IMG/VR virus record: IMGVR_UViG_3300035670_000316
Coordinates: 1-49,820 of that record
Origin: a virus
Strand: one strand, 5' to 3'
DNA: 49,820 bases
The notes under the pieces are model-generated. The model was not told the DNA's origin and made no database searches. It saw only the letters and a list, made by a program, of their open reading frames with translations. Position numbers and translations under genes: made by a program. This document shows, in pieces, positions 2,019 to 28,639 of this stretch (the first letter of the stretch is position 1; the number at the start of each line of letters is the position of its first letter).

Positions 2019-3689
2019 TTAAAGGGTGTTCAAACCGTTTACGTAGATCTTACCGTAGAATTCCGGACGAAGCATCTTCTTAGCGTAGCGAGTCAAGAGA
2101 CCTTTTCTTGGAGTGAAGGTATCTGGATCGTAGATAAGAGGAGTCATGATCAACGGAATGTAAGGAGCGAACACAGCACCGGCCTCAAGGAACTGAGTAC
2201 CACGGAAGCCCATAAGGATAGTGTTTTCAGTCATGTAAGGGTTCTTGTAAACTGTGTAGCGGCTGTTCAATTGACCAGCTTTCTGTACACCAAATGCGTA
2301 CTCCATCTTGTCGGCAGAACCGTCGCTGTTAGAAGCGAATCCTGGGATTGACTCGATGATAGTAGCTACAGTTGGAGAACATACCATGAAGTTAGCACCT
2401 CCGCGGAGAGTTAACTGGTGGATCTTGTTGCTCAACTTTTGCATCTTGGTACCAAGAGTTTGGAACCACTGACCTTGAGTGTTGTAGAAAGCACTTGGAG
2501 AAGCTACTGGAGCTGTCTGGGTAGAGCTTGTGATAACGAAGTTGTTGATGGCTGACCAGTACTCAGTACCAGCGGCAGCGTCTTCGATTAACATGTCAAG
2601 GATTTCGAGGTCGATTTCAAGAGAGATGTACTCGCTCATGATGTTAGTAACCTCAGCTTCAGCGTCAAGAGCTTGGTAAGCGTTAAGGTCTTGTGCGAAC
2701 TCAGGAGTCCAAACAGCCTTTAACTTCTTAGTCTTGGCAACGATAGCCTCTGAACGCATACCGATGTTGATCTCTGGGATAACGATTTCAGTAGCGCTTT
2801 CAGCGTTAGGTACAGCGTATGAGTTTCCAGCTTCGAAGTCACCAACGTTGTATGGAGACATTGTAGTAGCCTTGTTGTACTCAACTACCATAGTGCTTGA
2901 ATCAGCGAAGCCAGTTTGGCCAGCAGAAGCAGTAACGTAGAAAGTTAAGTTAGGAGCATTGTAAGTAGTGAATGCAGGTAAGTTAGTAGCTACAGTTACT
3001 TTTGAACCTGTAGACAATACGAAGCCACGAACAGCTTGATCGTCTAAAGAAGCAGTAATAGTAGAAGCATCAACTACGATTTTCTTAACCTGACCAGCAG
3101 CAACAGAAGCTGATAACGCAGAATCAAAGTTTACTTCAGAGAAAGAAGCAGAAGTGATTGAAGCTGTAGTTACAGTGAACGAAGCTGAGAATTGGTTGGT
3201 TGAGTAGGTAAATCTACCGGCACCGTAAAGACCACCTTCAGCAGCTGGAGTGGCGAATGGATACTGTGAACCAGTGTTACCATAGAGTGATTGACCCTGG
3301 GTAAATGGATTCTTAGCAGTTCCGTATTGGAAATCTAAGTAGAATACAAGACCAGAAGGAAGGTTCATTGGTTGAACAGAAACGAATTCCTTAGCAGCGA
3401 TTTGTCCGAAGACCTTACGTACTAATGGAAGAGCGATACCTGCCCACTCAGCGCCTTGACCTACTGAGAAAGCACCGTAGCCAGAACCGCCACCTACTGA
3501 TGACTGCTCAACTACAAGTTGCTTAGCTTGGTTTTCGAGGATAAGAGACATGTTGTTCTTGTCGGTTTCTGAACGAAGACCTTCAAGAAGTCCAGTCACT
3601 TCCCACTTTGCAGCTAATTTAGCTGCGTCAGACTGCATGTTCTTCCATCCAGAAGCTGCAGACTCAAGAAGTTGTTGTACTTGTGACAT
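2019..3689 (-). CDS. gp23: Major capsid protein (T4 gp23-like)
   Basis: 556 residues, close to T4 gp23 (521). It directly follows the protease and scaffold genes in the T4 order 21-22-23. Residues 1-61 form a charged helical pro-region (QQLLESAASGW, NMSLILENQAKQL). VVE/QSSVGGG at 59-67 fits a prohead-protease cleavage site, near the position used in T4 gp23 (E65). GAFSVGQGAEWAGIALPLVRKVF then opens the mature protein, with the conserved C-terminal YIPLIMTPLIYDP and PRKGLLTRYAKKM. The GC content looks higher than in neighbouring genes, as often seen for abundant capsid proteins. A degenerate box (GATATATAAC) precedes the ATG, and a strong terminator follows the gene. Confidence 0.95.
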   Translation of the reverse strand: MSQVQQLLESAASGWKNMQSDAAKLAAKWEVTGLLEGLRSETDKNNMSLILENQAKQLVVEQSSVGGGSGYGAFSVGQGAEWAGIALPLVRKVFGQIAAKEFVSVQPMNLPSGLVFYLDFQYGTAKNPFTQGQSLYGNTGSQYPFATPAAEGGLYGAGRFTYSTNQFSASFTVTTASITSASFSEVNFDSALSASVAAGQVKKIVVDASTITASLDDQAVRGFVLSTGSKVTVATNLPAFTTYNAPNLTFYVTASAGQTGFADSSTMVVEYNKATTMSPYNVGDFEAGNSYAVPNAESATEIVIPEINIGMRSEAIVAKTKKLKAVWTPEFAQDLNAYQALDAEAEVTNIMSEYISLEIDLEILDMLIEDAAAGTEYWSAINNFVITSSTQTAPVASPSAFYNTQGQWFQTLGTKMQKLSNKIHQLTLRGGANFMVCSPTVATIIESIPGFASNSDGSADKMEYAFGVQKAGQLNSRYTVYKNPYMTENTILMGFRGTQFLEAGAVFAPYIPLIMTPLIYDPDTFTPRKGLLTRYAKKMLRPEFYGKIYVNGLNTL

Positions 3690-3713: not shown

Positions 3714-4940
3714 TTATTTTTTGATACCCGCTAAGACTTTCCATCTAGCGAATTGATCGTTTACCTCAAGGATTGGTTTCTTTTCTGGGGCAATTCCTGC
3801 TGCTTTAGAAGCCATACCTCTTACTGATTCGTTAACTGTAGTTTTAGTTTCCTTAACTGTAGTTAATGTTTCGTAAATAAGTTTAGCATCTTTTACAGAG
3901 GCAGCTTTATCAAAAGCTTCCAATACCTTTACTTTTTGTGTTTCAGTTAAATTCTTAGCTCTGAAGATTTTGTTAGAGTAAAGAAGTTTAGCGTTAAGGA
4001 GTTTAGTTTCAGCAAGAGTTGAAGCTAATTCTTCAAGTTCTTGTTTCATTTCTTCCATTTCACTTTCTCCTTCTTCCATACTAGCTTTTTTACCTTTAAT
4101 CAAACGCTTAACAGCTTCAATACCGTCTTTAGCGTAAGCTGCTGCTAATGCTGCTGCTGGAATACCTACGGCACCTGCTAGAATACCAGTGATTATTTCC
4201 ATATCACTAGGGTTCATCATTAGGTCGTAAAGTTCGTTTACTTCTTCTTCTTTTACAAGTTCACCTCTTTCTTTTTCGGTTGACTTACGAAGTTTGTCTT
4301 TTGGATTCTTACCGTAGTAAGCTCTTTCAGCTACCATTTCTTCTTCGTCTTCCATATCGATGTCGATGTCCTCTTCTTCTCCACCTTCTTCGTCGGCTTC
4401 GAATTCTTCACCGGCTTCGAGCTCACCAGCTCTAACCATGTCTTCGATTACATCCTCAATTAAGTCCTTGAGCTCTTCTTCGGTCATGTCTTCAAGGTCG
4501 ATTTCGTCTTCCTCTTCACCTTCAACTTCTTCTTCAGAGTCCATTTCCATTTCCTCTTCTTCTTGTTCGTTTAGGGTTTCTTCCATTTCCTTGTCTTTGC
4601 CCATTTCCTCATCGAGTTCAGCTAGGAGTTCATCAAGATCCATCTCGTCTACCATTTCATCTTCCTCTTCAAGATTACCTTTAGGAGCAGCGCTAAATGC
4701 GTTACCGGTACCTTCTTCACTAGGATCGTTAATAGTTCCAAGACGTTCTTCCATTTTCTCTTCGCTGTAGTTTTCTTCCACTTCTTCTTCAGCTTCCATC
4801 TCAGCTAACTTAGCAGAGAATTTCTCTTTTAAGTATGGAGTGAAGGCTTCCTCAAGAGCGGCTTTGGCGTTTGCGATAGCTGCTTCTTTAACAGATTTAG
4901 CATCAGCAATAGCCTCTTTCAATAGGTCTCTATTTGCCAT
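3714..4940 (-). CDS. gp22: Prohead core scaffolding protein (T4 gp22-like)
   Basis: 408 residues, very acidic between about 45 and 210 (runs of Glu and Asp), with a helical N-terminus MANRDLLKEAIADAKSVKEA typical of T4-like core scaffolds. It lies between the protease and capsid genes. Candidate self-processing sites are LKE/A at residue 9 and LNE/Q at 125, which fits a scaffold degraded by the prohead protease. A hydrophobic Ala/Gly-rich stretch (ITGILAGAVGIPAAALAAAYA) is at about 250-270, and the C-terminal third is helical. Longer than T4 gp22 (269 residues), mainly through the acidic insert. Its own leader holds two inverted repeats and a TATAAT box. Confidence 0.87.
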   Translation of the reverse strand: MANRDLLKEAIADAKSVKEAAIANAKAALEEAFTPYLKEKFSAKLAEMEAEEEVEENYSEEKMEERLGTINDPSEEGTGNAFSAAPKGNLEEEDEMVDEMDLDELLAELDEEMGKDKEMEETLNEQEEEEMEMDSEEEVEGEEEDEIDLEDMTEEELKDLIEDVIEDMVRAGELEAGEEFEADEEGGEEEDIDIDMEDEEEMVAERAYYGKNPKDKLRKSTEKERGELVKEEEVNELYDLMMNPSDMEIITGILAGAVGIPAAALAAAYAKDGIEAVKRLIKGKKASMEEGESEMEEMKQELEELASTLAETKLLNAKLLYSNKIFRAKNLTETQKVKVLEAFDKAASVKDAKLIYETLTTVKETKTTVNESVRGMASKAAGIAPEKKPILEVNDQFARWKVLAGIKK

Positions 4941-5123: not shown

Positions 5124-5732
5124 TTATATAATAGGGCAAGTACCCTTAGCACATAGAATTTCTGTTAAAATACTACTTGCTTTTCCGTAATGATTTACTG
5201 TATTGTATTCTTTCCCTTCGCGTACTAGATGCATAAATGAGCCTGGGTTAGAAGGGGTTGAAACGAAATCCCAACATAATAATTCGAAATCGTCTTGTAC
5301 TTCCATCATACCTTCTCCCATTGGTTTTAATGAGCCCATACCGCGAGAAGAAACACCCACTTGAACACCATTATCAATTAATGCTTTAAGGATATTGCCG
5401 GAAACTGTTGGTAAAATTTCGATTTTACCTACAACGTGATCACCATCCCACCATATATCGCGAATGATATGACAAACGTTTTTTAGATTGATTATAGAAG
5501 AATCTGGGTGGTCTAGTTCACCTGTTGCTCTATTTTGCTTGACTATATCTGTGTATTTATCTATTTCTCTTTTCCACAAGTCTTTAGCATAATATCTACC
5601 ATTACCATTTCTTACTTGAGCAGTAGCTAGGATTCCTTCTACAATAGGATTACCTGCTGGAGATTTGTAACCTTCAGTTAGCTGAACAGGGTTAACCTGA
5701 AATTCTTGAGTTTCAATTAGTACTTGTTTCAT
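5124..5732 (-). CDS. gp21: Prohead maturation protease (T4 gp21-like)
   Basis: 202-residue serine protease that cleaves scaffold, capsid and internal proteins in the prohead. The catalytic His is in GELDHPD (H75) and the nucleophile in GVSSRGMGS (S128 or S129). WDFVSTPSNPGSF near 154-166 is the conserved strand-turn of herpesvirus-type prohead proteases. QLTE/GYKSP at residues 17-25 is a likely autocleavage site in the (L/I)-x-E form. It overlaps the stop of the upstream internal-protein gene by one base and is followed by a strong terminator. Length matches T4 gp21 (212 residues). Confidence 0.93.
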   Translation of the reverse strand: MKQVLIETQEFQVNPVQLTEGYKSPAGNPIVEGILATAQVRNGNGRYYAKDLWKREIDKYTDIVKQNRATGELDHPDSSIINLKNVCHIIRDIWWDGDHVVGKIEILPTVSGNILKALIDNGVQVGVSSRGMGSLKPMGEGMMEVQDDFELLCWDFVSTPSNPGSFMHLVREGKEYNTVNHYGKASSILTEILCAKGTCPII

Positions 5733-15870: not shown

Positions 15871-15914
15871 TAAAAAAGAGCTGTGACATCTCCAAATTTG
15901 GTGACGCCACAGCT
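15871..15914 (-). terminator. Rho-independent terminator upstream of the FAD cassette
   Basis: Coding strand AGCTGTGGCGTCACC with GGAGATGTCACAGCT (15879-15914) makes a long stem with two wobbles and one mismatch around an AAATT loop, followed by a TTTTTT run at 15872-15877. A smaller hairpin precedes it. It ends transcription from the virion-protein gene at 15963-16715 and separates the internal-protein operon from the oxidoreductase cassette. Confidence 0.85.
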
Positions 15915-15937
15915 GTCAAAAAGTTTTTAAATAAGGC

Positions 15938-15956
15938 GACGGGCTATGAATCCGTC
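15938..15956 (-). other. Small hairpin after a stop codon
   Basis: GACGG and CCGTC (15938-15942, 15952-15956) form a 5-bp GC-rich stem with a 9-base loop, 6 bases past the stop of the gene ending at 15963 and just ahead of the main terminator. It may stabilise the 3' end. It lacks a T tract and is not a tRNA. Confidence 0.5.
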
Positions 15957-15962
15957 TATAAG

Positions 15963-17241: not shown

Positions 17242-17242
17242 A

Positions 17243-17866: not shown

Positions 17867-17867
17867 A

Positions 17868-18842
17868 TTATTTAAATAATCTAGGGAAGTTCATACCTAA
17901 TTCAGAAGAAGAAACGTAAACACCGTTTAGTATTTTTTCACTTTCTATAGCATCTACTACTGCATCATCCATAATGTAGAATTTACCTTGTCCGTTTTCG
18001 CTTACGTTAAGTACATATCCTACTTCTTTACCCATTCTAGGTTTTTTAAGTAGTTTAGTTTTTAAAATTTGCTTAAGTAGTTTACCTGCTCCTTCTTGTG
18101 GGCTTGCAGATGGTGCTAAATCTAATCTAGAATATAGAGCATCAATACGCTTATATAGTGGTTCAAAAGCATCTATGTCTCTTAATTGTTTGTTTTTTTC
18201 AAACATAGACATGATTTCAAAGGCTGGGAGGATATCGTTTCCTTTAAAGTTACCTGCGTTGATTGTAACATCTGATTCTTCATCGAATTTGCTGAATAGG
18301 GTTAAAATAGCTATTACACTATTTAATAATGCTATATTAGCTTTATCGCCAGCGAATTTACCTAAAGTAATATTAGATGTATCGTATGATTTAATTTCTA
18401 CTCCGTAACCATCAATGGTTAAATCAGGATCTTCTCCTTTTCTAGAGTCAGTAACGTTGTGTTTGTTAACGTTATATTCAAAAGCCCAGTAAGTAGCGAT
18501 TTCTCCTTTACCAGCACCTGCTGTAGGGACATCGCTGTCTTTTTTAAGTGGAAGGATTGGATATAATTTTTTCCAAATTTCTTCGTCTTCACCACTTAAA
18601 TTAAAATCTTCACCTAGCTTTAAAGGAGTATTACAAGTAGGAATTTTATCGCCTTCTTTTAAACCTAAAGCTTTATAGATTCTAACATTATAATTTACTT
18701 GTGCTTCGTTGACAATAACTTCACCCATAAAATCTTCAGCTAGTTCAAATAACATAGCTTTATCTTTTGGGTTATTAATATCAGGATATCCTTTTGGGAA
18801 TTTCCAAGCTACACTTTTAATGAATTTATCGAATTGATCCAT
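17868..18842 (-). CDS. Possible PD-(D/E)xK nuclease-fold protein
   Basis: 324 residues. KGEIATYWAFEYN (E114) followed by GEDPDLTIDGYGVEIKSYD has the order E...D(140)...E(149)-x-K(151) of the PD-(D/E)xK nuclease core. The remainder is mixed helical, with LLKQILKTKLLKKPRMG basic near 255-271. VNE/A at 44-47 is a protease-type site. It lies among candidate internal proteins, so it could be an injected nuclease or a nuclease-fold DNA binder. The match rests on one motif and spacing; activity is unproven. Confidence 0.55.
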   Translation of the reverse strand: MDQFDKFIKSVAWKFPKGYPDINNPKDKAMLFELAEDFMGEVIVNEAQVNYNVRIYKALGLKEGDKIPTCNTPLKLGEDFNLSGEDEEIWKKLYPILPLKKDSDVPTAGAGKGEIATYWAFEYNVNKHNVTDSRKGEDPDLTIDGYGVEIKSYDTSNITLGKFAGDKANIALLNSVIAILTLFSKFDEESDVTINAGNFKGNDILPAFEIMSMFEKNKQLRDIDAFEPLYKRIDALYSRLDLAPSASPQEGAGKLLKQILKTKLLKKPRMGKEVGYVLNVSENGQGKFYIMDDAVVDAIESEKILNGVYVSSSELGMNFPRLFK

Positions 18843-19285
18843 TATACTTCGGGTTCTGCTGCTGGTTCTTCTGCTGGTGTTTCTGGAGTTGCTGCTTCAG
18901 CTCCTTCCGCAGGTGCCTCCGCTTTGCTTCCGTAACGTAATATACGAGAGATAGATTCGCAAGCCGACTCTTCTTCGTTCAAATTAAGTAGATAGTATTT
19001 TTTACCTTCTACTTGAGCGATCCAGCTTTTGGGTGTGTAAATAAGATAGAAATCTTGTCCGTTTTTTAGATTGATACGGAAAGTAGTAGGACGAGGAGCA
19101 ACCCAATCAATTGAGGCTAAAAAGTAGTCGAAATCAGCAGATAACAGATCTACTATAACAGCTTTAAGTTCTGGGAATTTTGTTAGCTCATCGTACTCAG
19201 CAGCAGCAACGTCAGCCTTAAGTCTACCTCTGTAGACATCCTTGGCTAACGTTCTAATTTTGGCTACGAGTTCTTCACGAGTCAT
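18842..19285 (-). CDS. Hypothetical head-region protein with acidic tail
   Basis: 147 residues. An N-terminal helix MTREELVAKIRTLAKDVYRGR is followed by a compact middle (DYFLASIDWVAPRPTTFRINLKNG, FYLIYTPKSWIAQVEGKKYYLL). The last 28 residues are a low-complexity Ala/Pro/Glu tail (EAPAEGAEAATPETPAEEP). It overlaps both neighbours by one base. The tail resembles flexible linkers of scaffold-associated proteins. Not recognised. Confidence 0.6.
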   Translation of the reverse strand: MTREELVAKIRTLAKDVYRGRLKADVAAAEYDELTKFPELKAVIVDLLSADFDYFLASIDWVAPRPTTFRINLKNGQDFYLIYTPKSWIAQVEGKKYYLLNLNEEESACESISRILRYGSKAEAPAEGAEAATPETPAEEPAAEPEV

Positions 19286-20484
19286 TATCCTCTAGCTTTT
19301 TGTTTTGCGGTTGGACCTTTACCACCACCTTTTGCTTTGTATGAAGCTACAGCACCAGCGATTGCTTTAGCTGCTTTTTCTGATTTGCCTTGTTTTTTAA
19401 GTTTACCAACAAGTTTTTCGAATGATTCGTCTACTTGGATTACTCCTTTACTAACTAATTCTCTTGCTCTGTCGGCTACGTTTGATTTTTTTAATCCGTA
19501 TTTACGTGATAGCTTTTCACCGAATTTATTTTCCAAATCATTATACGACATCTTACCTAATTCTTCTCCACTTACACCTGCACTTTTTGCAAAATCTTTT
19601 AGGAATTTGAAATAAGTTTCTTTAGCGTTGTCTGTTCTAGAAGCTTTGGTAGCGAACATATCTACTTGATTTTCGTCTAACTCAGCAGTAGCTTTTTTAA
19701 AGTAGCCTTTTGGTAAACCTTCGTCTACACCTACATTATCTAAAGCACCTGACATATCAATAGCACCTACCATAGCATCGATTTCTGGTTCTTTTGTTTC
19801 GAAATCAAGGTAGTGTTTAGCACTAGAGATCATTTCTTTTGCCTTGATGATTTTTGACTGCCACCAGTGTGGAAAATCAACTTCACCCATACCTTCGAAC
19901 TGATCTACCATCTGGTAAAGTTCCATAGCGTATTTTCCAATACGGTATAGGTCGCCTTTAAGCATGTGTGGTTCGTTGTCGGTATGGCCTAGGTCAAGAT
20001 CTTCTTCTAGGTTTGGATCTTCATAGTCTTCCATATCAACGTCAAAGTCTTTAAGAGCAACTACTACTGTTTGGTCACCTACTCTTACAGCTACAGAGCC
20101 GTTTTTCTTTAGAAGATCATGGTCTTTATCTGTTAAGACAATAGCTTGATTAATGGCTTCTTCCATTTTACCCTTAGCTTTAGAGATAATGGCTTTTTGC
20201 AAACCATCTGGGAGATTCTTTTGACCACCTTTTAAAGCTGGGTCGTTATCGAATTCTTTGGAAAAGCCTGCTTTTTCCTGCATTAAAGCTGCTCTTACTA
20301 GCTCTTTTAGATTTGTTTTTTCCATTTGTGTTTCTGCTACTTTTTTTGCTATGTTAGTGGCGCGACCATACATTACTTTTTCTGCATCTGGACCATAACG
20401 CTTAACAAGACTACGCTTGTTTTTCTTCATCTTTTGGATGACGTCTTCGCGTTTGGCGAGTTCAGCTGCGGAAAGTTTTGCCAT
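19285..20484 (-). CDS. Large modular internal protein candidate
   Basis: 399 residues. The N-terminus includes KRYGPDAEKVMYGRATNIAKK (about 29-49), a short module found in many aquatic T4-like phage proteins. The middle has DLGHTDNEPHMLKGDLYRIGKYA with FPHWWQSKIIKAKEMISSAKHYLDFE (about 175-230), another recurrent module. The C-terminus is basic: FEKLVGKLKKQGKSEKAAKAIAG and GPTAKQKARG. These modules occur in different combinations in related phages, as recalled. No enzyme residues. Position and basic tail suggest a DNA-associated head protein. Confidence 0.68.
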   Translation of the reverse strand: MAKLSAAELAKREDVIQKMKKNKRSLVKRYGPDAEKVMYGRATNIAKKVAETQMEKTNLKELVRAALMQEKAGFSKEFDNDPALKGGQKNLPDGLQKAIISKAKGKMEEAINQAIVLTDKDHDLLKKNGSVAVRVGDQTVVVALKDFDVDMEDYEDPNLEEDLDLGHTDNEPHMLKGDLYRIGKYAMELYQMVDQFEGMGEVDFPHWWQSKIIKAKEMISSAKHYLDFETKEPEIDAMVGAIDMSGALDNVGVDEGLPKGYFKKATAELDENQVDMFATKASRTDNAKETYFKFLKDFAKSAGVSGEELGKMSYNDLENKFGEKLSRKYGLKKSNVADRARELVSKGVIQVDESFEKLVGKLKKQGKSEKAAKAIAGAVASYKAKGGGKGPTAKQKARG

Positions 20485-20490
20485 TTTATT

Positions 20491-20880
20491 TTAAATTAAT
20501 CCAGCTTTTTCAAAAACTGTATCATCAAATATGTTTATCCAATTGGCTTGAATATAACCAACTTCACTCATATCATCTATCAAATTAATAGCAAAGTCAC
20601 TATAATCGTCCTTGCTAATATCTTTACCTTCAGGAAATTCAGATTTGAAGTCATCTAATACACTTTCATCTTCATAGCTCTCTATAATGTCCAATACATC
20701 TTTATAAGAGGCTACAGCAGGTGCATTCTTAAAAGCATCATTTAAATCAACTTCTTCTGTGTCTTCATCATAATAATCATCAATATTAAATCCTTCACTT
20801 ATATTTATTTTGGTTTCAGTGATGATGCCCGCTAGTTTTTGCATACGGGTAAATTCTTCGGATAAGATTTGTTTTTTCAT
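20491..20880 (-). CDS. Small acidic internal protein candidate
   Basis: 129 residues from the ATG at 20880, chosen because MKKQILSEEFTRMQKLAGII is a recurrent leader and the longer frame would overlap the histone-like gene. ITE/T at 20-23 and ISE/G at 27-30 are protease-type sites. The mature part would be acidic (DDYYDEDTEEVDLNDAF, YEDESVLDDFKSEFPEG). The start is one base downstream of the stop of the 57-aa gene. Probably an internal protein; function unknown. Confidence 0.72.
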   Translation of the reverse strand: MKKQILSEEFTRMQKLAGIITETKINISEGFNIDDYYDEDTEEVDLNDAFKNAPAVASYKDVLDIIESYEDESVLDDFKSEFPEGKDISKDDYSDFAINLIDDMSEVGYIQANWINIFDDTVFEKAGLI

Positions 20881-20881
20881 T

Positions 20882-21055
20882 TTATTTTGCTTTATCTTCA
20901 GCAGTAGATGCTTTACGATATTCGGTTGCAAGCTTTTTAAGCTCACCAGCTGCTTTACGAGCGCGTCCGTGAGCTGCTTTAGCTGATTTGTGATGTTCGA
21001 TAGTTAGGGTTTCTAAAACCGCTACCATTTTATCGTGTAGTTCTTGTGATGTCAT
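20882..21055 (-). CDS. Histone H1/Hc1-like small basic protein
   Basis: 57 residues, short enough to be missed by usual length cut-offs. It starts MTSQELHDKMVAVLETLTIE and continues with a Lys/Ala/Arg-rich helix: KSAKAAHGRARKAAGELKKL then TEYRKASTAEDKAK. The pattern KAA-x-RARKA-x-x-L-x-KL-x-x-EYRK-S matches the small Hc1-type histone-like proteins known in Bacteroidota and Chlamydiae. Such proteins bind and condense DNA. It sits between two candidate internal head proteins with almost no gap, suggesting a packaged or DNA-organising role. The family call is by eye and should be profile-tested. Confidence 0.68.
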   Translation of the reverse strand: MTSQELHDKMVAVLETLTIEHHKSAKAAHGRARKAAGELKKLATEYRKASTAEDKAK

Positions 21056-21059
21056 AATA

Positions 21060-21596
21060 TTAACCGTTTAATCTGTTCCATAATGGGAAAGCTACGCTTT
21101 CGTCTACTTTTGCTCTTGTTGGCTCGTCTCCTGCAACTACGAAGTCGCGAGTGAAGAATGTGATTGTATTACCAACCTGAGTGATGAATTTTTGGTCACC
21201 AAACTCTTCAGCTTGTGCTCTTAGAGTTTCGAGTGTGTCAAGGATTTTTCTTGTGTCTTGTGGGAGTGAAGATAGAGAAACAATTTTCTTGTCTACTACG
21301 ATTGAGTCATTTGCTGTTTCTTCTTCACCACCATCTGTAGTTTCTTCTTCAGCGTCAACGTCAACGTCTACTTCTTCCTCTTCTTCTTCGTCTTGTTCGT
21401 TTAACGATACTTCTTCTTCAGAAAGGCGAGCTAACATTTCGTCAAGATCTTCTTCGTACATGTCTTCTGCTTCGTCAACTTTAGGAGAGTACAGGGATGC
21501 TATAGCTGGAGCTGCATCATCGTCTTGATCCGTAGTAAAGTCTGCCTCTGATAAGTAAGCAGCCTTGATCATTTCTTTTAATTCTGATATTTTCAT
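21060..21596 (-). CDS. Acidic internal/core protein candidate
   Basis: 178 residues. Leader MKISELKEMIKAAYLSEADF gives LSE/A at 15-18. A highly acidic middle contains LNE/Q at 65-68 followed by a Glu run, the same LNEQ-acidic junction as in the scaffold (125-126). The C-terminal 70 residues look globular (IVSLSSLPQDTRKILDTLETL, GDQKFITQVGNTITFF, SVAFPLWNRL). Release of the acidic piece by the protease would mirror small acidic peptides known from T4 heads. A TATTTATAA element is 21 nt upstream. Confidence 0.7.
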   Translation of the reverse strand: MKISELKEMIKAAYLSEADFTTDQDDDAAPAIASLYSPKVDEAEDMYEEDLDEMLARLSEEEVSLNEQDEEEEEEVDVDVDAEEETTDGGEEETANDSIVVDKKIVSLSSLPQDTRKILDTLETLRAQAEEFGDQKFITQVGNTITFFTRDFVVAGDEPTRAKVDESVAFPLWNRLNG

Positions 21597-21617
21597 TGCA
21601 ATGAATTTGAGTATATG

Positions 21618-21626
21618 TTATAAATA
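21618..21626 (-). promoter_or_regulatory. Intergenic TTATAAATA element
   Basis: Coding-strand ATATTTATAAC, 21 nt before the ATG at 21596 and 15 nt after the previous stop. This spacing would leave a short untranslated leader. Confidence 0.55.
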
Positions 21627-21641
21627 TATAAAATTTTGTTA

Positions 21642-22226
21642 TTATGTCATAAGACTTTTAATAGCTGGGAAGGCATTAAGAATAGCTTCGTCACTTTTAG
21701 CTATAGTTTTTAAAGATGTTAAAGCTCCTTTAAACCAGTCAGCTTTACCTAAACTTTCAATGGCACTTGCTCCATAACCTGCTGCCATACTAGCAATCAC
21801 AATAGCATAAATAGCTTGGGTTGTTGCTTCTAATTTAGCAGAATCTTTAATAAAAAACGCTAAAACACGTTTGATAGGTGCTTGGAATGCTTTTTCATTA
21901 TCGTGAGCCCAATGATGAACTTTTTCAGCAAAATCTTCACCTTTTTTCCAATTTAGTTTTTTCATTAACTTAGCAGCCATTTTAGAAATAAATCCTATAA
22001 CAGCATTACCTGTTAAAACTGCTGCTATAATTGAGGTTACAACGGCTTCATCTAATTGTCCTTTATCTCCTTGCTTAGCTTTAAGTTCTTTACCTAAAGT
22101 AGAAGCAATTCCATTAGCTACAGACATTAACTCAGAATCAAATGCTTTTTCTTCAGGAGTATTATCTTGAATTTCCTCTAAAAGAGGATTATTAGCTAAA
22201 TATTTTTTTAAATCAAATGTATTCAT
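21642..22226 (-). CDS. Internal protein candidate with two hydrophobic helices
   Basis: 194 residues. Leader MNTFDLKKYLANNPLLEEIQ; LDE/A further on (GQLDEAVV, about 57-64) is protease-type. Immediately after that site comes a hydrophobic helix AVVTSIIAAVLTGNAVIGFI, and a second, AIYAIVIASMAAGYGASAI, is at about 138-156. Between them is a basic amphipathic stretch (KMAAKLMKKLNWKKG). A cleaved product starting with a membrane helix could act on the host membrane during injection; this is speculative. Conserved in aquatic T4-like phages as I recall, without known function. Confidence 0.65.
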   Translation of the reverse strand: MNTFDLKKYLANNPLLEEIQDNTPEEKAFDSELMSVANGIASTLGKELKAKQGDKGQLDEAVVTSIIAAVLTGNAVIGFISKMAAKLMKKLNWKKGEDFAEKVHHWAHDNEKAFQAPIKRVLAFFIKDSAKLEATTQAIYAIVIASMAAGYGASAIESLGKADWFKGALTSLKTIAKSDEAILNAFPAIKSLMT

Positions 22227-22238
22227 TTTTATAATTAT

Positions 22239-22520
22239 TTATTTTCTAAAGCGTACTTTTGCTTTAGGTGTATTAGATACAAACTGTTTACCTTTTTTAC
22301 TACCTGCTACTTTTTTTCTTGCAGTAGCTGCTCTTTGTGCTTTAGTTAAACGTTGAGCTTTTGCTTTTGGTAAGCAACGTGTTGTTGCTTTGCCTGGTTT
22401 CATAGTACCACAAGGACCGGTTATGTTACCCGCAGTATCGATACGCACCCAGTTCTCTTTTTTGAACCAGTCGCGTAGTGATTCTGTGATTATCTCTTGT
22501 AGGCGTTCTTGAGTTATCAT
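22239..22520 (-). CDS. Small basic protein (DUF6321-like)
   Basis: 93 residues. Leader MITQERLQEIITESLRDWFKK with ITE/S at 11-14. Then come NWVRIDTAGNITGPCGTMKP and a strongly basic region TRCLPKAKAQRLTKAQRAAT with ARKKVAGSKKGK. The combination (WVRIDTxGNIxGPCGT, RCLPKAKAQxLTKAQRAATARKK) matches a family I recall as DUF6321. The high Lys/Arg content suggests DNA binding in the head. It overlaps the next upstream gene by 4 bases. Confidence 0.75.
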   Translation of the reverse strand: MITQERLQEIITESLRDWFKKENWVRIDTAGNITGPCGTMKPGKATTRCLPKAKAQRLTKAQRAATARKKVAGSKKGKQFVSNTPKAKVRFRK

Positions 22521-23428
22521 CCCTTCATTTGTCCTTTACATACTTTAACAGCACGGCCTGAAAGATAGGCAGATGATTTTTCACCAGCAGCCATTCTTTT
22601 CTTGATATATGCTTTACCTTTTGGGCAAAGTTCCTCGTAGATAACACCTTCACCTAAACGTGTAGTTTCGTCAATATCGTCTACGTTAGCAATTTTCATC
22701 AAGATTTTGTTTAAAACATCGGGTGTTAAACCTTTTGTTTTACCCCCTGGAAATTCAGGATCATCTTTTAGATATTTTGAGTAGCCCTCTTCTTCTTTGA
22801 TTTCAACGTCTGGGTCAAGTGCTCTGTAAGCATCTTCAAGGGCTTTTTTTAAGATATCAATAGCGGGTTTATTGTCTTGTCTTTTAGAAAAAATTTGAGC
22901 GGCTAGTTTAGCTGCTAAAGCCTCGATTTGATTTTTTGGAACTAAACGAACCTCATCTACTTGTTGAGTTTCTCCAACTAAAGAATTGTAATCGTCCATT
23001 GAAAGAAGACCTCTTAACTTAACGGCCTCTATAGCGCGTTCTGTTACCTCGTGTAGATCAACATCTTCAGCTGCGTCTTCTTTTGCCCATTCTAACATAC
23101 GAAGGAAAAGAGGAACATCCATAGCGATAATGTCTGTTGGGTCTTCTTCTTGTTCGTTTAGATACTGATTAGAATTTTCGATGTATAAAGTATTAGCTTC
23201 ATCACCTTGACCATCAATGTATCTAAGTTTAACTCTATAAACTAAATCGTCGCTAGCATAATCTGCTTTGGATATATCTATAATTTCGCCTTCTGTTCCG
23301 TAAGGGAATTCAAAGCTTGGGAAGGATGCAGGGTTGATTTTGATAGTATCTCCTAGTGATAATTCTCTACCTTCAAATTCGCTTATAGGTCTAGAAAAAA
23401 ATTCTTGTACTTTTTTTAAGTCTTCCAT
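22517..23428 (-). CDS. Internal protein candidate with conserved C-terminal Cys module
   Basis: 303 residues. N-terminus MEDLKKVQEFFSRPISEFEG; an SH3-like beta segment LSLGDTIKINPASFPSFEFPYG with GEIIDI near 24-52; LNE/Q at 90-93 before an acidic patch. A conserved helical part, FLRMLEWAKEDAAEDVDLHEV, follows. The C-terminus LCPKGKAYIKKRMAAGEKSS continuing to GRAVKVCKGQMKG carries two Cys and many Lys and is a recurrent end module in related phages. Likely cleaved into pieces, with the basic end binding DNA. No enzymatic motif. Confidence 0.66.
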   Translation of the reverse strand: MEDLKKVQEFFSRPISEFEGRELSLGDTIKINPASFPSFEFPYGTEGEIIDISKADYASDDLVYRVKLRYIDGQGDEANTLYIENSNQYLNEQEEDPTDIIAMDVPLFLRMLEWAKEDAAEDVDLHEVTERAIEAVKLRGLLSMDDYNSLVGETQQVDEVRLVPKNQIEALAAKLAAQIFSKRQDNKPAIDILKKALEDAYRALDPDVEIKEEEGYSKYLKDDPEFPGGKTKGLTPDVLNKILMKIANVDDIDETTRLGEGVIYEELCPKGKAYIKKRMAAGEKSSAYLSGRAVKVCKGQMKG

Positions 23429-23430
23429 TA

Positions 23431-23973
23431 TTACATCATTTTAGCTAATTCGGGGTTCTTTAAAGCGTAATAACGGAACAATGCTTTACCTAAAGTAGCT
23501 CTTACTTTATTTGAAACATAGTCTTGGAAAGGAACACCCTCTAAATCAGCATCAATCAAGTCATTGAGCTCATCCATCATTTGTCTTGATTTACCGGGTT
23601 GTCCCTCGTATTTGTCAGCAATAGCTTTAATGCTTGCTTTATGTTTGTCTAAAATTTCTCTTGCTTTAGCAGTTGCTGCTGAAAGTGCTTCTGGTGAGTC
23701 TGGGTAATCGTCTGCTACTTCATTTACAGATTCGTTCATACCTAATTCGGCATGAAGAATTCTCATAAAATCTTTTATTTGATCTGATGAAAACCCACTA
23801 TTAAGATCTTTTTCTGTACCTTTAAGAAATTTAGCTATAGCTTTAGCTAGATTAGGATATGATGGATCAACATCATATATAAGGTCATGTATTTTATCTA
23901 CTTCACTTTCTTGAAGAAGACCTGCTTCCGCTAGGTAGCGTCTTTTGTTCCATTTGTGTACGTTGAAGCTCAT
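23431..23973 (-). CDS. Internal protein candidate, helical
   Basis: 180 residues. Leader MSFNVHKWNKRRYLAEAGLL, with LAE/A at 14-17 and LQE/S at 20-23. The rest is helical and mixed charge (IHDLIYDVDPSYPNLAKAIA, REILDKHKASIKAIADKYEG, VRATLGKALFRYYALKN). It overlaps the following upstream small gene by 71 bases in a different frame, unusual for this compact genome. Function unknown. Confidence 0.65.
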   Translation of the reverse strand: MSFNVHKWNKRRYLAEAGLLQESEVDKIHDLIYDVDPSYPNLAKAIAKFLKGTEKDLNSGFSSDQIKDFMRILHAELGMNESVNEVADDYPDSPEALSAATAKAREILDKHKASIKAIADKYEGQPGKSRQMMDELNDLIDADLEGVPFQDYVSNKVRATLGKALFRYYALKNPELAKMM

Positions 23974-24121
23974 TTTCTTCTGATTTAGTTTCCTCTATTA
24001 CTTCTTCAACAGGAGCAGGTTGAGGTGGGTTAAAAGGAGGAACATAAGTATCCTTTACGAAACGAGCACCACCCACTCCGTAAACAGTTTTAGTTCCTTC
24101 TCCTGGTCTAAAATTGATCAT
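23903..24121 (-). CDS. Small Pro-rich protein overlapping the next gene
   Basis: 72 residues: MINFRPGEGTKTVYGVGGARFVKDTY, a proline stretch PPFNPPQPAPVEEVIEET, then a polar tail. The last 23 codons overlap the start of the next gene in another frame, and the SGSRSSSRK end may be a by-product of that overlap. Support for a real gene: a TATTTATAA element directly before the ATG, exactly filling the gap after the preceding stop codon, and a plausible N-terminal domain. No recognised function. Confidence 0.55.
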   Translation of the reverse strand: MINFRPGEGTKTVYGVGGARFVKDTYVPPFNPPQPAPVEEVIEETKSEENELQRTQMEQKTLPSGSRSSSRK

Positions 24122-24123
24122 AC

Positions 24124-24132
24124 TTATAAATA
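24124..24132 (-). promoter_or_regulatory. Intergenic TTATAAATA element abutting a stop codon
   Basis: Coding strand TAA-TATTTATAAG-T-ATG: the element is wedged between the stop of the zinc-ribbon gene and an ATG 2 nt downstream, matching the 6841-6849 copy base for base on both sides. Confidence 0.58.
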
Positions 24133-24714
24133 TTATTGTTTTTTTAGACTCTGTAGATATTTAATGGTTTCTTCCTTTGACTCAAGTAGTTTATTTTTTA
24201 CTGAACCTGTCCATTTTTCTACGTCACCTGCCTCTGTAATGTAAGACTGAATATCACTGTGTTCGATTTCTTCGTTAATCCAAAGTTCAAATTCTTTGAT
24301 CATACCCTCTACATCTGAGTTGTGAAGGAATGTTTGATATTCTTCCCATAGACCCTGAGTACGTAAACTAGTTTCAAAATCAATCTGGCAGTTAAAGCAG
24401 CGTTTGTACATGTTAAACCACCTCTTATCCAGGTGTGGTTTCATCGGTTTTTTACAAGACGGGCAAAAAATCGGAAAATTGACCGTTTCACGCGCCTTAT
24501 CAAGTTTGGTAACGTTTTGTTTAATACCATCCTTAATTGTCCACGTCTTGTCGCCTTCGGTCCATACATCACCTTCGTTGTGTACTTGATTGGCTTCTTT
24601 TGTAAAACCGACTGATACTTGGGATTTATCTGCATGTTTTCCCTTTACTAAATTTCTTAACCTATTAACGTCTTTTTCTGCGAATTGTTTCTTTAAAACA
24701 TTGTCTTTACTCAT
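24133..24714 (-). CDS. Conserved zinc-ribbon phage protein
   Basis: 193 residues. MSKDNVLKKQFAEKDVNRLRNL opens a conserved N-terminal part with WTEGDKTWTIKDGIKQNVTK. A zinc ribbon follows: CPSC (C84, C87) and CFNC (C106, C109), separated by a basic loop. The C-terminal half is helical (EEYQTFLHNSDVEGMIKEFE, SVKNKLLESKEETIKYL). I recall proteins of this pattern in T4-like cyanophages and related phages, still unnamed. It overlaps the polyprotein-like gene by 4 bases. Nucleic-acid binding is plausible. Confidence 0.75.
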   Translation of the reverse strand: MSKDNVLKKQFAEKDVNRLRNLVKGKHADKSQVSVGFTKEANQVHNEGDVWTEGDKTWTIKDGIKQNVTKLDKARETVNFPIFCPSCKKPMKPHLDKRWFNMYKRCFNCQIDFETSLRTQGLWEEYQTFLHNSDVEGMIKEFELWINEEIEHSDIQSYITEAGDVEKWTGSVKNKLLESKEETIKYLQSLKKQ

Positions 24715-27476
24715 AAACCTAGTTGTTGTAACTGTTTGATTGTATTAGCAGCCGATGTGTGAAGTATACCTATACCACCATTAGCATTCCATGAATCGAT
24801 AGTATCTTTTCTATCGTCAATTAAAATTTTATTTGGACCCGCAAAGTCGGCTTTTCTTTGAGCAGAGCGGAAATATATTTTTTTCATGTTAGGTAAACGT
24901 TGAACCCACTCGGTTTTACCTTGCATTGATTCATTGTTTTCTAACTTGTAACGTTCTTCAAATGGAATATCAAAATTAACAGAAGGAGCAGTTAAAACGT
25001 ATGGGTTATATTCTTTAATATAGTCCCAAAGTTGCTTTCCGTCGGGCATCCAATCTAGGTTAGCCCAATATGATCTTTCGGAGATGTCTTTGTTTTTTAG
25101 ACTATCTCTATATAATTTCCAAAATTCGTCTTTACCTTGTGAATCGGCATGTTGGGTGGTTACACCTGTTAGTTCTTTATATCCCTCATCGAAGTCCACT
25201 AACACACCATCCATGTCACAAAATATCACGGGTTTCTTTCCCCCTATCATTCCTCTCATTTCCTCATCCTTTTTTTCAACACCCGTATCATGAAGGTACA
25301 AGATCTCTTTTACGGAGGCACTGGTAAAGGAGGGTAAACCTAAAGCTTTTGCTCTTTTAGCCCATAGATCAAGAATTTCTTTTCTTTCTTCCTGATTAAT
25401 AGGTTGGGTATCTAAGTAATTGTCTATAACCTCTAAGAATGGTTTACGAGATTTTTTAGCTTTAAAATATAGACCTTGAAGCATTGCGTCTACTTCTTTT
25501 TCTAATTTAAAATATTCTGCTTTAGGAAGCAAATTAGCATCGATCATGTCTCGTAAAAACTCATCATCAGCCATTTGTTTGCTAGGTCTTACTAGTCTAG
25601 GATCATCGCTTTGAGTTCCACCTTTTACATTTTCACCATCTTGAGTTAAATGTTCAAGCTCATGTCTGATAACATCTTTTAAGTCAAATGATACTCTCTG
25701 CCAGTCTGGGTTTTTAGGAATTTCAAAGCGAACTGTTAGTAAAGGTTGAATAGGTTTACCTTTTTTATCCCACCCAGCATTTGCACCTCCATCTACTGTA
25801 TAAGTATCGTCTGTGTATTTAGCTTGAACTACAAAATCAAATTCAAACTCATCAGAGATAAAATCTACTTCCTCGTCTGCAGGCCCTACTACAAATAACT
25901 CGTCTATTACTTTTCTACCTACATCGTGCCCGTCTTTCATTAATCCAAACGCAAAACTAGAAAGTTCATTAGCTAATTTATCGTAGCGACCTTCTGTTAA
26001 TACTTCTTCTAAACCTTGAGCTAATTCACGAGCGTATTGGTTTAAACCAAAAGGATCTTTTACTTTACCGCTTGGATTATTTTGTTTTTTATAATCATCC
26101 ATATTTTTTACGGATGTTTTTTGACCATCTTCCTGTAAACCATCAGTCCAGTTACGGAAGGTCATTGTACCTTTTAGATTAGCTTCTTTTTCAAGATCAT
26201 TGATGTGATCGTCCTCTAAAGTATTTGTAGTGGAAACATCACCTAATCTACCTTCAAGGTTTTGAATGTGGTGAATCATTTCGTGAGAGAAAGAACGCAC
26301 AATATCTTTGGGATGACGACCGTAAGTATATAAGGTGATAGACTTATTGATCGGATCATAGTATGCGGTTTTACCCAAGAATTTACCGGCATTTTCCATA
26401 TCATCGTCTACGATTGATATGCTGGGAACAGGATCAATATTATATCCCTTTTCTCTCATATAATTGGTTAACTCGGCTATTTTTTCGAGTATATCAATTG
26501 AAGGGATAGTATTTTCTTTTAATGGCTTATATCCTGAACCAAATGGGGCTGCTTTACCTGTGTGGTTCGGAGCTACATTTTCTTTTTTTAAGCGCTGTGT
26601 TTTTTCCTTAGATGCTTCTTTTCTTTGTTCAGCATAATCCAAAGCAGTTTTTAAACGCTTTTTTACTTCTGGGTCTTTAGCTCTTTCGTAAGCTGCTCTT
26701 ACTCGCTGATGGATCAAATTAATAATTTGAGACTGGCGAGCGTGTGATTTTGATTTGAAAGAGGCTTTAGATAAAGTATCTATAATGTCTTGTTTAGTAG
26801 AGAATTTTACTTTAACAGTATCGCTCGGGTCTTCGTCTGTGTATAATCTGCGACCTGATCCTTTTGGTTTTTTACCTGTACCTACTTTAGGATCACCTTC
26901 TTTTAATACGTTAGGTTCTAAAATATTATAGATGTCTTCTTTTTCGTTATCTGGGATTTCGGTAGGTAAAAATGTAAAGAATTTCTCTTTATCTCCTTTT
27001 TGAAGTGCTTTACGAGCATTTGTTCCGCTCATATCACCAGATGGGGTTTTGATTACTCTAACCTCTAGATTAGGATATTTTTCTTCAACTCCCTTAGTGC
27101 GATTTTTAATGTCTTGTAGATCGTCTTCTCTACCCTCACGATAACCCAAAACAAAATATACTTTCTCATCTGGGTGGTTTTTAGCGTAACGTAAGATATC
27201 TCCGATTGGAGAAGGGGATGGTTCTATTTGAACTTTAGATGGGAGCAATTCCTTGTAAATATCCCATACTTGAAGTGATTGTTCTTGTTCGATTCCATCT
27301 CTAATACCTCCACCAACATAGATTAAAAATTTATCTATGTCTTTGAAATCTTTTAAAGCGGTTTTAACTAAGTCAAAGTGACCTTTGGTAGGTGGTTTAA
27401 AACCACCCCCATAGATCGCAGTAACGGATTGTCCGTCTACTAGTTCTCTAACCAAAAACTTTGTTAGTTGGTCCAT
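24711..27476 (-). CDS. Multidomain candidate polyprotein: nucleotidyltransferase, two zincin-like motifs, HAD nucleotidase
   Basis: 921 residues with four enzyme-like regions. (1) About 18-190: adenylyl/cytidylyltransferase fold, with GGGFKPPTKGHFDL at 23-36 (HxGH-type site) and SGTNARK at 150-156. (2) About 330-480: zincin-type HEMIHH at 398-403. (3) About 497-700: second HExxH, HELEH at 605-609. (4) About 748-921: HAD phosphatase, with CDMDGVLVDFD at 753-763 (D754, D756), LTAPS at 828-832 and LIDDRKD at 885-891, like deoxyribonucleotidases. Junctions carry prohead-protease-type sites: LKE/G (E193), LKE/N (E321), LTE/G (E495). The fusion looks like a precursor cleaved in the head, but no cleavage is shown. 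It sits among candidate internal-protein genes. Confidence 0.8.
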   Translation of the reverse strand: MDQLTKFLVRELVDGQSVTAIYGGGFKPPTKGHFDLVKTALKDFKDIDKFLIYVGGGIRDGIEQEQSLQVWDIYKELLPSKVQIEPSPSPIGDILRYAKNHPDEKVYFVLGYREGREDDLQDIKNRTKGVEEKYPNLEVRVIKTPSGDMSGTNARKALQKGDKEKFFTFLPTEIPDNEKEDIYNILEPNVLKEGDPKVGTGKKPKGSGRRLYTDEDPSDTVKVKFSTKQDIIDTLSKASFKSKSHARQSQIINLIHQRVRAAYERAKDPEVKKRLKTALDYAEQRKEASKEKTQRLKKENVAPNHTGKAAPFGSGYKPLKENTIPSIDILEKIAELTNYMREKGYNIDPVPSISIVDDDMENAGKFLGKTAYYDPINKSITLYTYGRHPKDIVRSFSHEMIHHIQNLEGRLGDVSTTNTLEDDHINDLEKEANLKGTMTFRNWTDGLQEDGQKTSVKNMDDYKKQNNPSGKVKDPFGLNQYARELAQGLEEVLTEGRYDKLANELSSFAFGLMKDGHDVGRKVIDELFVVGPADEEVDFISDEFEFDFVVQAKYTDDTYTVDGGANAGWDKKGKPIQPLLTVRFEIPKNPDWQRVSFDLKDVIRHELEHLTQDGENVKGGTQSDDPRLVRPSKQMADDEFLRDMIDANLLPKAEYFKLEKEVDAMLQGLYFKAKKSRKPFLEVIDNYLDTQPINQEERKEILDLWAKRAKALGLPSFTSASVKEILYLHDTGVEKKDEEMRGMIGGKKPVIFCDMDGVLVDFDEGYKELTGVTTQHADSQGKDEFWKLYRDSLKNKDISERSYWANLDWMPDGKQLWDYIKEYNPYVLTAPSVNFDIPFEERYKLENNESMQGKTEWVQRLPNMKKIYFRSAQRKADFAGPNKILIDDRKDTIDSWNANGGIGILHTSAANTIKQLQQLGL

Positions 27477-27839
27477 TTACTTAAGCTTCATGATAAGCTC
27501 TTTGGCCTTGCTTTTCTTTTCTTCGATTTCTGTTTTAGCCTTTCTGTACTCTTCCATCTCACGCTTAAGAGCTTCTTTCTGCATTTCGTACTCTTTCATA
27601 GCAGTTTTAGCGTGTTTGCGAGCAGCTGATTTATTTGTGCTGGCGTAAGCAGCATTAATCTCGTTCATGTCAATTGTATCGTAGATAGAAGCAGGACGGA
27701 TCATATCGTCCATTGACATACCTCTTTTAGGTTTCATTACAAGGATGATTTCGCCAATCTCGTTATATGGCTCTTTCATTTCCAATGTTTCAGCTTCTAA
27801 AGCTTCCTTGATTAAGTTTTTTAATTCAGATTTTTTCAT
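27477..27839 (-). CDS. Small coiled-coil protein with internal-protein leader
   Basis: 120 residues. Leader MKKSELKNLIKEALEAETLE gives IKE/A at 10-13, nearly identical to the leader at 43703-44098. The middle, IGEIILVMKPKRGMSMDDMI, is followed by a long charged helix to the end (ARKHAKTAMKEYEMQKEALK, EYRKAKTEIEEKKSKAKEL). It starts inside the kinase gene end (4-base overlap) and ends directly before the polyprotein ATG. Function unknown. Confidence 0.7.
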   Translation of the reverse strand: MKKSELKNLIKEALEAETLEMKEPYNEIGEIILVMKPKRGMSMDDMIRPASIYDTIDMNEINAAYASTNKSAARKHAKTAMKEYEMQKEALKREMEEYRKAKTEIEEKKSKAKELIMKLK

Positions 27840-28639
27840 GAGTTAAGGAATTGTTTGATTTTGGATTGTGCTTCTGGGATAGAAACAGTTTGTTGTATAA
27901 TATCTTGAACGTTTTTCTCGTCGCGTAGTGATATAATCTCTTTTTCAAGTGCTGCTTTATCAGCTCTGGATTTAGCGATTTCTTTTTCTGATTTTTCTTT
28001 AGTATCAGTTGGTTTATAAGGATCAATATAGCGTTTAACTATATCTTCTAAACTTGCTTTGCTGAATGGATCCTTGTCTTTTGTAGTTGCTACAAAGTTT
28101 TGACCAAATAAATTAAGGTAAGGGATAAAGTTTTTAGTTACGTTAGCCCACGTTTGCATTACAATTGAAGGCATTAAACTTCTATCCTCACCAGCTGAAC
28201 GCTCAAATCTGTCTTCGTTTTTCTCAAGTGATTTTTCAAGTGAAGAATAAACGTAAACCATCATTACATCATATCCGGCTGCCTCTAAAGTATCTTTTAA
28301 CGATTCTGTTTTCTTGTAAGCAGCAGCAGTACCATCAATTACGATGTCTCCTTTAGAACCAATTTCTTGTGCTAAAGCTACTTGATAATCCTTTTGAGCT
28401 GCAGCCATTGCTTTAGCTGCCCCACTTCTACCTTCAGCATCTGCTTTTTTCAAATCAAGTGAAATACCAGCATCGCGAAGATTTTTAATAAAAAAATCGT
28501 CAATGTTCATTACTTTCAAACCAAGGTCACTGATAATTTCACCTACAACAGATGATTTACCAGCGCCAGGAGCGCCTGCTAAGATAATAGCTTTGGGGGC
28601 ACCTTGTGCCTCTTTAAGTAATTGGACCAATGAGATCAT
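27836..28639 (-). CDS. Zeta-toxin-like P-loop kinase with internal-protein leader
   Basis: 267 residues. MISLVQLLKEAQGAP carries LKE/A at 8-11, then IILAGAPGAGKSSVVGEI has Walker A at 22-30. VMNIDDFF near 43-50, IVIDGTAAAYKKTESLKDTL near 97-116 and MVYVYSSLEKSLEKNEDR follow the layout of zeta-toxin and polynucleotide-kinase-like P-loop enzymes. The last 60 residues are a charged helix. Cleavage after E10 would release an enzyme beginning just before its P-loop strand. The substrate is unknown: UDP-sugar, nucleic-acid end or small molecule. If packaged it could act at infection start. Confidence 0.75.
   Translation of the reverse strand: MISLVQLLKEAQGAPKAIILAGAPGAGKSSVVGEIISDLGLKVMNIDDFFIKNLRDAGISLDLKKADAEGRSGAAKAMAAAQKDYQVALAQEIGSKGDIVIDGTAAAYKKTESLKDTLEAAGYDVMMVYVYSSLEKSLEKNEDRFERSAGEDRSLMPSIVMQTWANVTKNFIPYLNLFGQNFVATTKDKDPFSKASLEDIVKRYIDPYKPTDTKEKSEKEIAKSRADKAALEKEIISLRDEKNVQDIIQQTVSIPEAQSKIKQFLNS

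Follow-up and report, generated by a model that had tools for sequence, protein, structure and literature searches.

A candidate modular cargo polyprotein of a T4-like phage whose module borders carry the prohead protease motif

The IMG/VR record IMGVR_UViG_3300035670_000316, considered here over positions 1 to 49,820 (49,820 nucleotides, hereafter the window), is DNA of a T4-like phage of the far-T4 type, the host of which is probably flavobacterial (marine Flavobacteria). At 24711..27476 on the minus strand it carries a single open frame with an ATG start and 921 codons for amino acids, the product of which is treated here as a candidate cargo polyprotein; 237 related stretches were found in a scan of IMG/VR. 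A sequence-only reading of this DNA had described one uninterrupted frame at this position without naming a strand, and the frame indeed lies on the minus strand, the plus strand being rich in stops there. The gene begins right after the stop of the preceding gene, its end is overlapped by 4 bp by the following gene, and it shares its strand with the head genes of the phage (terminase, gp20, prohead protease, scaffold candidate and gp23).

Read from its N terminus, the chain opens with a leader helix recognized from the sequence (residues 1-16, MDQLTKFLVRELVDGQ; 27429..27476, minus strand as for all features of the chain). Module 1 (residues 17-187; 26916..27428) has both the fold and the T/HxGH motif of a NadD/CoaD-type nucleotidylyltransferase: TKGH, within GGGFKPPTKGH at residues 23-33, and SGTNAR are intact, Foldseek matches include PDB 8aih (NadD, E 1.5e-6) and 1b6t (TMt 0.78), and the module corresponds to phrog_3041. 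Beyond the candidate protease site LKE193/G (26898..26906; a slash marks the presumed cut) lies module 2 (residues 194-321; 26514..26897; alignment A5), a basic helical module (DPKxGTGKK...HARQSQIINLIHQRVRAA) that many phages carry as a stand-alone gene. Candidate site LKE321/N (26514..26522) leads into module 3 (residues 322-449; 26130..26513; alignment A3), a zincin-type HEMIHH domain with HEMIH at residue 398, whose members weakly match the Pfam families DUF6782 and MPTase-PolyVal, the latter in 16 of 33 members (best E 0.015). Candidate site LQE449/D (26130..26138) is followed by a connecting peptide that forms a lone amphipathic helix (residues 450-495, KDPFGLNQYARELAQGLEE/VLTE; 25992..26129), recurs in 45 of 62 relatives and contains the candidate sites LEE491/V (26004..26012), recognized from the sequence and from an equal peptide end in relatives, and LTE495/G (25992..26000). 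Module 4 (residues 496-724; 25305..25991) is a second zincin-type domain (RHELEH...KEVDAM, with HELEH at 605); H110, E111, H114 and E166 are invariant in its alignment A4. Finally, candidate site VKE724/I, with V at position P3 (25305..25313), precedes module 5 (residues 725-921; 24714..25304), a linker and a HAD-type 5'(3')-deoxyribonucleotidase that matches phrog_2643 (E 6.9e-28) and has the DxDGV motif in CDMDGVLVDFD, with Pfam NT5C under its cut-off (15.1 vs 24.8 bits). No convincing match among solved structures came from sequence searches, whether the query was the full protein or a profile of module 3 or 4. The chain had been described as a four-enzyme protein; the recognized motifs are all there, but the count of four is slightly off, since residues 194-321 make up a further conserved module with no recognized enzyme motif.

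The same reading had placed E193, E321 and E495 between the domains, at protease-type sites. All three sites exist, but the list was incomplete, LQE449, LEE491 and VKE724 also being module borders. The three named sites are only three of 11 [LI]xE in the chain, so that their bare presence proves nothing; 11 in 921 residues (11.9 per 1000) is an ordinary density, and an argument from the count or density in this one protein was dropped, position and conservation being what is informative. In an AlphaFold2 (AF2) model built with 23 relatives, the mean predicted local distance difference test score (pLDDT) is 72.8, module 5 reaches about 90, and the segments below 50 are residues 10-14 (containing V-R-E11), 189-215 (E193), 298-327 (E321), 364-367, 420-495 (E449, E491 and E495), 625-629 and 720-746 (V-K-E724). 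Structure prediction, the check that had been proposed for E193, E321 and E495, thus puts all three in disordered linkers and not within folded domains. The remaining [LIV]xE (132, 187, 331, 335, 526, 800 and 822) lie outside such segments, mostly in or beside helices or strands. Seven of 14 [LIV]xE in linkers, against 2.6 expected (p=0.008), with no excess for five control motifs, is a modest excess for a single protein, and the argument is therefore carried by comparison across phages. A second model, of the relative L066 with 19 further relatives, was not used as evidence (mean pLDDT 53.5, more than half of the chain below 50). Conservation among relatives is 22/22 for site 321, 19/19 for site 495, 15/20 for site 449, 4/5 for site 724 and 8/18 for site 193, which has other sites nearby; the domain-internal [LIV]xE of the window chain are conserved at 7-36%.

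The best 80 of the 237 related stretches were fetched and compared, and 62 non-redundant relatives served for the comparison of breakpoints. Their chains range from 530 to 1312 residues. The adenylyltransferase is the first of the five detected domains in all 47 complete non-redundant proteins, and the nucleotidase, where fused, is the last (31/31); in many relatives it is a separate gene immediately downstream. The middle of the chain varies, since domains D2, D3 and D4 may each be there or missing, occur twice, change order or give way to another domain, and extra modules include zinc ribbons and ART-like, weak RegB-like and YunG-like domains. One relative (L058:3071-6832) contains a complete Fe/Mn superoxide dismutase (residues 488-684, Pfam 4.5e-29, DVWEHAYY intact) and a plastocyanin-type cupredoxin (residues 826-910, 6.8e-14, H-C-H-M ligands by eye), both flanked by [LIV]xE, a pair that could possibly provide head-delivered protection against oxidative stress. 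L066 has another cupredoxin (2.2e-17), and at residues 893-946 of its chain (L066:8001-10976) a third type of zincin, IrrE/M78-like (HEISHL), occupies the module 4 position. The varied zincins found there show repeated recruitment of different metallopeptidase-like domains. A scan of genome contigs for cellular relatives of module 3 returned only five contigs of metagenome-assembled genomes, including Flavobacteriales and Winogradskyella, which are likely binned phage.

Exchange among these chains takes place at the protease motif. Ends of BLAST alignments between the 62 relatives (at least 60% identity) lie within 3 residues of [LIV]xE in 36.1% of cases versus 10.7% after circular shift (about 3.4-fold), and within 3 residues of [LI]xE in 28.5% versus 8.2%, figures that are effect sizes and not p-values because the endpoints are not independent; at the same breakpoints nine control motifs do no better, or hardly better, than chance. 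With close relatives, the borders of swaps fall exactly at LKE, VKE, LEE or ITE. The window's ...SASVKE/ILYLHDTGV, for instance, corresponds to ...APLEE/ISYLHNTGV in L005, where the module ahead is wholly different; L002, L003 and L008 have an insert GSCGY...GLEE/ placed after FKE or VKE, as well as a 63-residue insert ending in DITE/NTIPS, and these three and L004 have an indel border at site 193. An [LIV]xE precedes module 3 in 47/47 cases and follows FRNWTD within 12 residues in 48/54 (the border at site 449), and [LIVM]xE stands directly ahead of the G(R/K/V)YD start of module 4 in 38/38, with variable residues at P2 and different modules ahead of it; an independent hold-out scan found the site directly before module 4 in 34 of 36 new contexts. 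Zinc ribbons start (13/13) and end (17/17) at a site, and the nucleotidase starts at one in 29/34.

The phage has its own candidate for the enzyme that would read this motif. The presumed cutter is a gp21-like prohead protease of the Peptidase_S77 family (S77; 5124..5732, minus strand; Pfam E 1.2e-27, PF03420 at 97.1 bits vs a cut-off of 27; phrog_207 E 5.8e-57). It lies among the other minus-strand head genes: major capsid protein gp23 (2019..3689; Pfam E 2.7e-71), a 408-residue scaffold candidate in the gp22 position (3714..4940), assigned by position and its 15 [LI]xE and the presumed core for leader binding, and portal gp20 (8314-10203) and terminase (10227-11792), both from profile searches. 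In the first set of records S77 is present in 13 of 25, among them every one of the nine that reach 118 kb or more. The S77 homologue on the contig of L218 (G026:C1:50206-50733) has a single in-frame TAG, possibly a sequencing error or recoding. The window's gp23, taken as an independent guide to the motif of the protease, has LLE/S, GLLE/G, ILE/N and VVE/Q in its N-terminal region, and across 13 phages of the group this region conserves LLE/(S/N), GLLE/G, ILE/N and QLVxE/ or a close variant. The QLVxE/ position is presumably about where T4 gp23 is cut. Because the gp23 alignments carry QLVxE/, V appears to be accepted at P3. T4 gp21 cleaves after L/I-x-E, and the first 10 residues of IPIII are enough for packaging (PMC9026906); the borders of the polyproteins show this same L/I-x-E, a minority having V (or M) at P3.

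Scaffold-position proteins of the group are dense in the motif (28-46 [LI]xE per 1000 residues), which might suggest that the 921-residue protein is itself a sacrificial, scaffold-like core protein shredded by S77, its enzymes spent or inactive. The catalytic motifs of the chain's enzymes are intact and conserved, real enzymes such as the Fe/Mn superoxide dismutase have been recruited, and the density of sites within domains is below chance, the opposite of a scaffold: inside domain cores [LI]xE stands at 0.57 of the shuffled expectation, against 1.37 for [LI]xD, 1.25 for [LI]xK and 1.19 for Ex[LI], and against 1.10-1.29 for [LI]xE in other open reading frames (ORFs) of the same loci and the window. 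Such depletion indicates selection against cutting inside domains, and we regard the sacrificial-core explanation as extremely improbable.

Several modules also occur as single genes with a leader that closes on the same motif. The nucleotidase of L030 begins MIKLVDLLKE/FQDSQYTIFCDLDG; module 4 stands alone as MKYIKQFENFLINE/GRYDKISN in L176 and MKYIKMFESFTLNE/GRYDKITN in L181, and module 2 as MISLTKILTEILSE/GDPKVGTG in L197 and MIKLVDLLKEITE/GDPKVGTG in L221. The single gene MKLTDIIFEKLNE/IGDLSQ of L027 has its counterpart in NILNE/IGDLSQ within the L025 polyprotein. Such leaders are similar to the capsid-targeting sequences of T4 cargo, N-terminal helices of about 10-15 residues with LxE at their end. 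Among polyproteins with the GGFKPP motif, 32 of 41 have an N-terminal leader ending in [LIV]xE ahead of the enzyme. In seven leaderless polyproteins (L014, L015, L017, L036, L046, L054 and L064) the start codon shares bases with the stop codon of the gene before. An account of leaderless relatives as frame fusions was set aside: in those examined, the stop of the kinase gene upstream overlaps the start of the polyprotein gene, and no leader is encoded in frame. When all ORFs were taken together, leaders were enriched (50% downstream and 39% upstream vs 17-20% shuffled), a figure left unused owing to contamination by spurious ORFs. One alternative is that the chain is an ordinary multidomain protein in which LxE at a border is an uncut remnant of gene fusion or recombination. 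Recombination has clearly shuffled the modules, and the short conserved linkers might be its seams; yet the borders keep only hydrophobic-x-E while P2 varies, fusions retain LxE and lose the remainder of the leader, sites are depleted within domains, and the nine control motifs show no enrichment at borders. A relic of this kind is very unlikely.

Module 2 offers a natural control. It is very widespread in phages, with at least 600 scan matches, and is also present in a phage group of another kind. In the complete Pelagibacter phage HTVC033P no S77 was found, and its module 2 protein (gp40) starts MAKKREPKKGTG, with neither leader nor site; in this other group module 2 begins MAK..DPK/EPK (the slash here denoting alternatives). 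Among the matches listed, 22 contigs (L251-L272) are all leaderless and siteless, e.g. MAKDPKVGTG, and in the two longest of them (58.6 and 45.7 kb) neither S77 nor gp23 was found, whereas nine contigs with S77 also have gp23 and [LIVM]xE before module 2 (9/9).

This contrast bears on the closest competing explanation, that the chain belongs with the polyvalent proteins described by Iyer et al. (2017), injected whole or self-processed by its zincin domains and uncut by the prohead protease. In its favor, this is a multidomain protein encoded in the head region that, like polyvalent proteins, joins at least two disparate domains in one chain, and it has two zincin-type domains, of which module 3 weakly matches MPTase-PolyVal; self-processing by such domains is proposed by these authors (PMC5512222). 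The border motif is nevertheless that of S77/gp21, as in gp23 and the scaffold of the same phages, single-module genes that contain no zincin have the same LxE closing a leader, and module 2 lacks the site in phages without S77. We therefore consider the polyvalent explanation improbable, though less so than an uncut relic or a sacrificial core.

A cultured relative, the Baltic Sea Flavobacterium phage immuto (160 kb, MW353175), carries a collinear cluster and an S77 (E 6.9e-36). In its 907-residue protein (QQO91862), annotated as an NMN adenylyltransferase, a region resembling a Pol-beta-type NTase (by eye) is followed by LAE/ALDDGSEVV, the adenylyltransferase, HEMIHH and then MAE/GRYDTVT...HEIEH. 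The nucleotidase (QQO91863) is a separate gene with a leader ending LLLE/ESDF, and many small neighbors have leaders, e.g. MKKSELVKLIKE/, MISIYNILKE/ and MENFDLKKFLVE/. A literature search found no virion proteomics for immuto.

The genes around the window's chain follow the same pattern. Over 12467-28639, all on the minus strand, many small genes start with a short helix ending in LxE (MISLVQLLKE/A, MKKSELKNLIKE/A, MIKLTDLLKE/S, MITQERLQEIITE/S and MKISELKEMIKAAYLSE/A), which gives the entire block the look of a head-cargo cluster. The gene directly upstream (27836..28639) codes for a zeta-toxin-like P-loop kinase (Pfam Zeta_toxin E 1.5e-14) whose leader, MISLVQLLKE/A, resembles a capsid-targeting sequence; it is likely another head cargo, a candidate packaged effector kinase. 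A stand-alone gene at 22239..22520, MITQERLQEIITE/SLRDWFKK, has a homologue fused into a 526-residue multi-module ORF in L077. Within residues 1-45 of the 207-residue protein at 17243-17866, LxE occurs three times (MLNE/S, ILSE/G and PLTE/H), and this protein is possibly another precursor of two or three pieces. Genes at 13297-15846 include, by eye, lookalikes of an AAA/NadR-type kinase (13297), a cupin (13824) and a FAD-dependent oxidoreductase (14476).

Taken together, these sequences make it very likely that the 921-residue ORF encodes modular phage cargo as a polyprotein, with the prohead protease of this T4-like phage as the processing enzyme. The core idea of the earlier reading, a multi-enzyme precursor cut between its domains by a gp21-like protease, found support in every comparative test run on these sequences: borders lie at [LIV]xE in relatives and in the hold-out, single genes have leaders ending in LxE, the motif is absent in S77-less phages, sites are depleted inside domains, and the junction sites fall in disordered linkers. 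In the mechanism that we propose, the polyprotein would be produced late, along with the proteins of the head, and would enter the prohead core, guided in most relatives by an N-terminal helix like the T4 capsid-targeting sequence. There the gp21-type S77 protease would cut the chain after the glutamate of [LIV]xE, releasing some six pieces (the adenylyltransferase, the basic helical protein, two zincin-type domains, the connecting helix peptide and the 5'-nucleotidase) that would stay with the DNA and probably reach the host by ejection. The same sites would also serve as module borders, allowing domains to be inserted, deleted or swapped without harm to their neighbors. Judging from the domain identities, it is tempting to speculate that the pieces serve as early enzymes for cofactor and nucleotide metabolism and as protection against the host response.

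Several points weigh against this interpretation. About 10 relatives lack a leader, and the window leader offers only V-R-E11 where the leaders of most relatives end in [LIV]xE directly ahead of the enzyme, so that targeting is not explained for all. Stand-alone module genes without a leader exist (L058, L059, L022, L074 and L123). E491 is not conserved in the alignment (its score in alignment A1, 0/15, was left unused because gaps misalign that peptide), breakpoint counts are non-independent events, and V at P3 is deduced from gp23 alignments. Seven more contigs (47-88 kb, among the matches listed) yielded neither S77 nor gp23, yet most have the site before module 2, possibly because the records are incomplete. 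The architecture and modularity of the chain, the position and conservation of its sites, their place in linkers and the protease gene are direct observations, and it counts against the conclusion that it is drawn from sequences alone.

The closest known mechanism is the packaging of T4 internal proteins (IPI-III and Alt), which share the short N-terminal helix ending in LxE, the gp21-type protease, phage-variable cargo and a head-gene operon (PMC9026906, PMC3012670). T4 makes one protein per gene with terminal propeptides, whereas here several folded enzymes share a chain, with sites between them at which modules are exchanged. In the giant phages phiKZ and SPN3US a trans-acting gp21-related protease (gp175/gp245) likewise cuts many head proteins after E, but those cuts remove propeptides, and the parts of these reports consulted describe no multi-enzyme precursor with exchangeable modules (PMC9026906, PMC10052503). 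The closest concept is that of polyvalent proteins, chains of disparate domains, frequently zincin-like, that phages and plasmids are predicted to inject with their DNA and that have been likened to RNA-virus polyproteins, with release via embedded zincins (Iyer et al. 2017, PMC5512222). The earlier remark that no described protein of this architecture was known to its author must be tempered by this near neighbor, but it stands insofar as no version cut by a prohead protease was found. In the passages of that account consulted (PMC5512222), no chain with this domain set is described, and the present chains differ in having the motif of a trans-acting prohead protease at every well-sampled border and in existing as leader-bearing single-module versions.

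Like RNA-virus polyproteins, these chains would yield several enzymes by cuts at short inter-domain motifs; unlike them, and with no homology to them, they belong to a double-stranded DNA phage, depend on a structural-maturation protease and carry cargo instead of replication proteins. A cassette-swapping polyprotein cut by a prohead protease was not found described in the open-access literature. Polyproteins are typical of RNA viruses and retroviruses. More generally, and with somewhat less assurance than for the single chain, it is probable that T4-like phages handle head cargo as cassettes, with the site of the prohead protease as their grammar: any folded domain placed between two [LIV]xE, or behind a short leader that ends in one, would become head cargo, and enzymes as diverse as an NAD/CoA-type adenylyltransferase, superoxide dismutase, cupredoxin, zincins and nucleotidase would be loaded in advance as a single polyprotein and freed by maturation. 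The recurrent connecting helix KDPFGLNxYARELxxGLEE/ (45/62 proteins) may, speculatively, act in such a system as an internal targeting element. Under the mechanism proposed here, a tailed DNA phage would have put its head-maturation protease to a new use, the freeing of injected enzymes made as one chain, and the free swapping of cargo without breaking neighboring modules would be explained. The rule that a leader or module ends in [LIV]xE would then predict head cargo in uncultured T4-like phages, and the cargo list (adenylyltransferase, superoxide dismutase, cupredoxin, ART-like domain and zincin) would hint at the activities of these phages in the opening minutes of infection.

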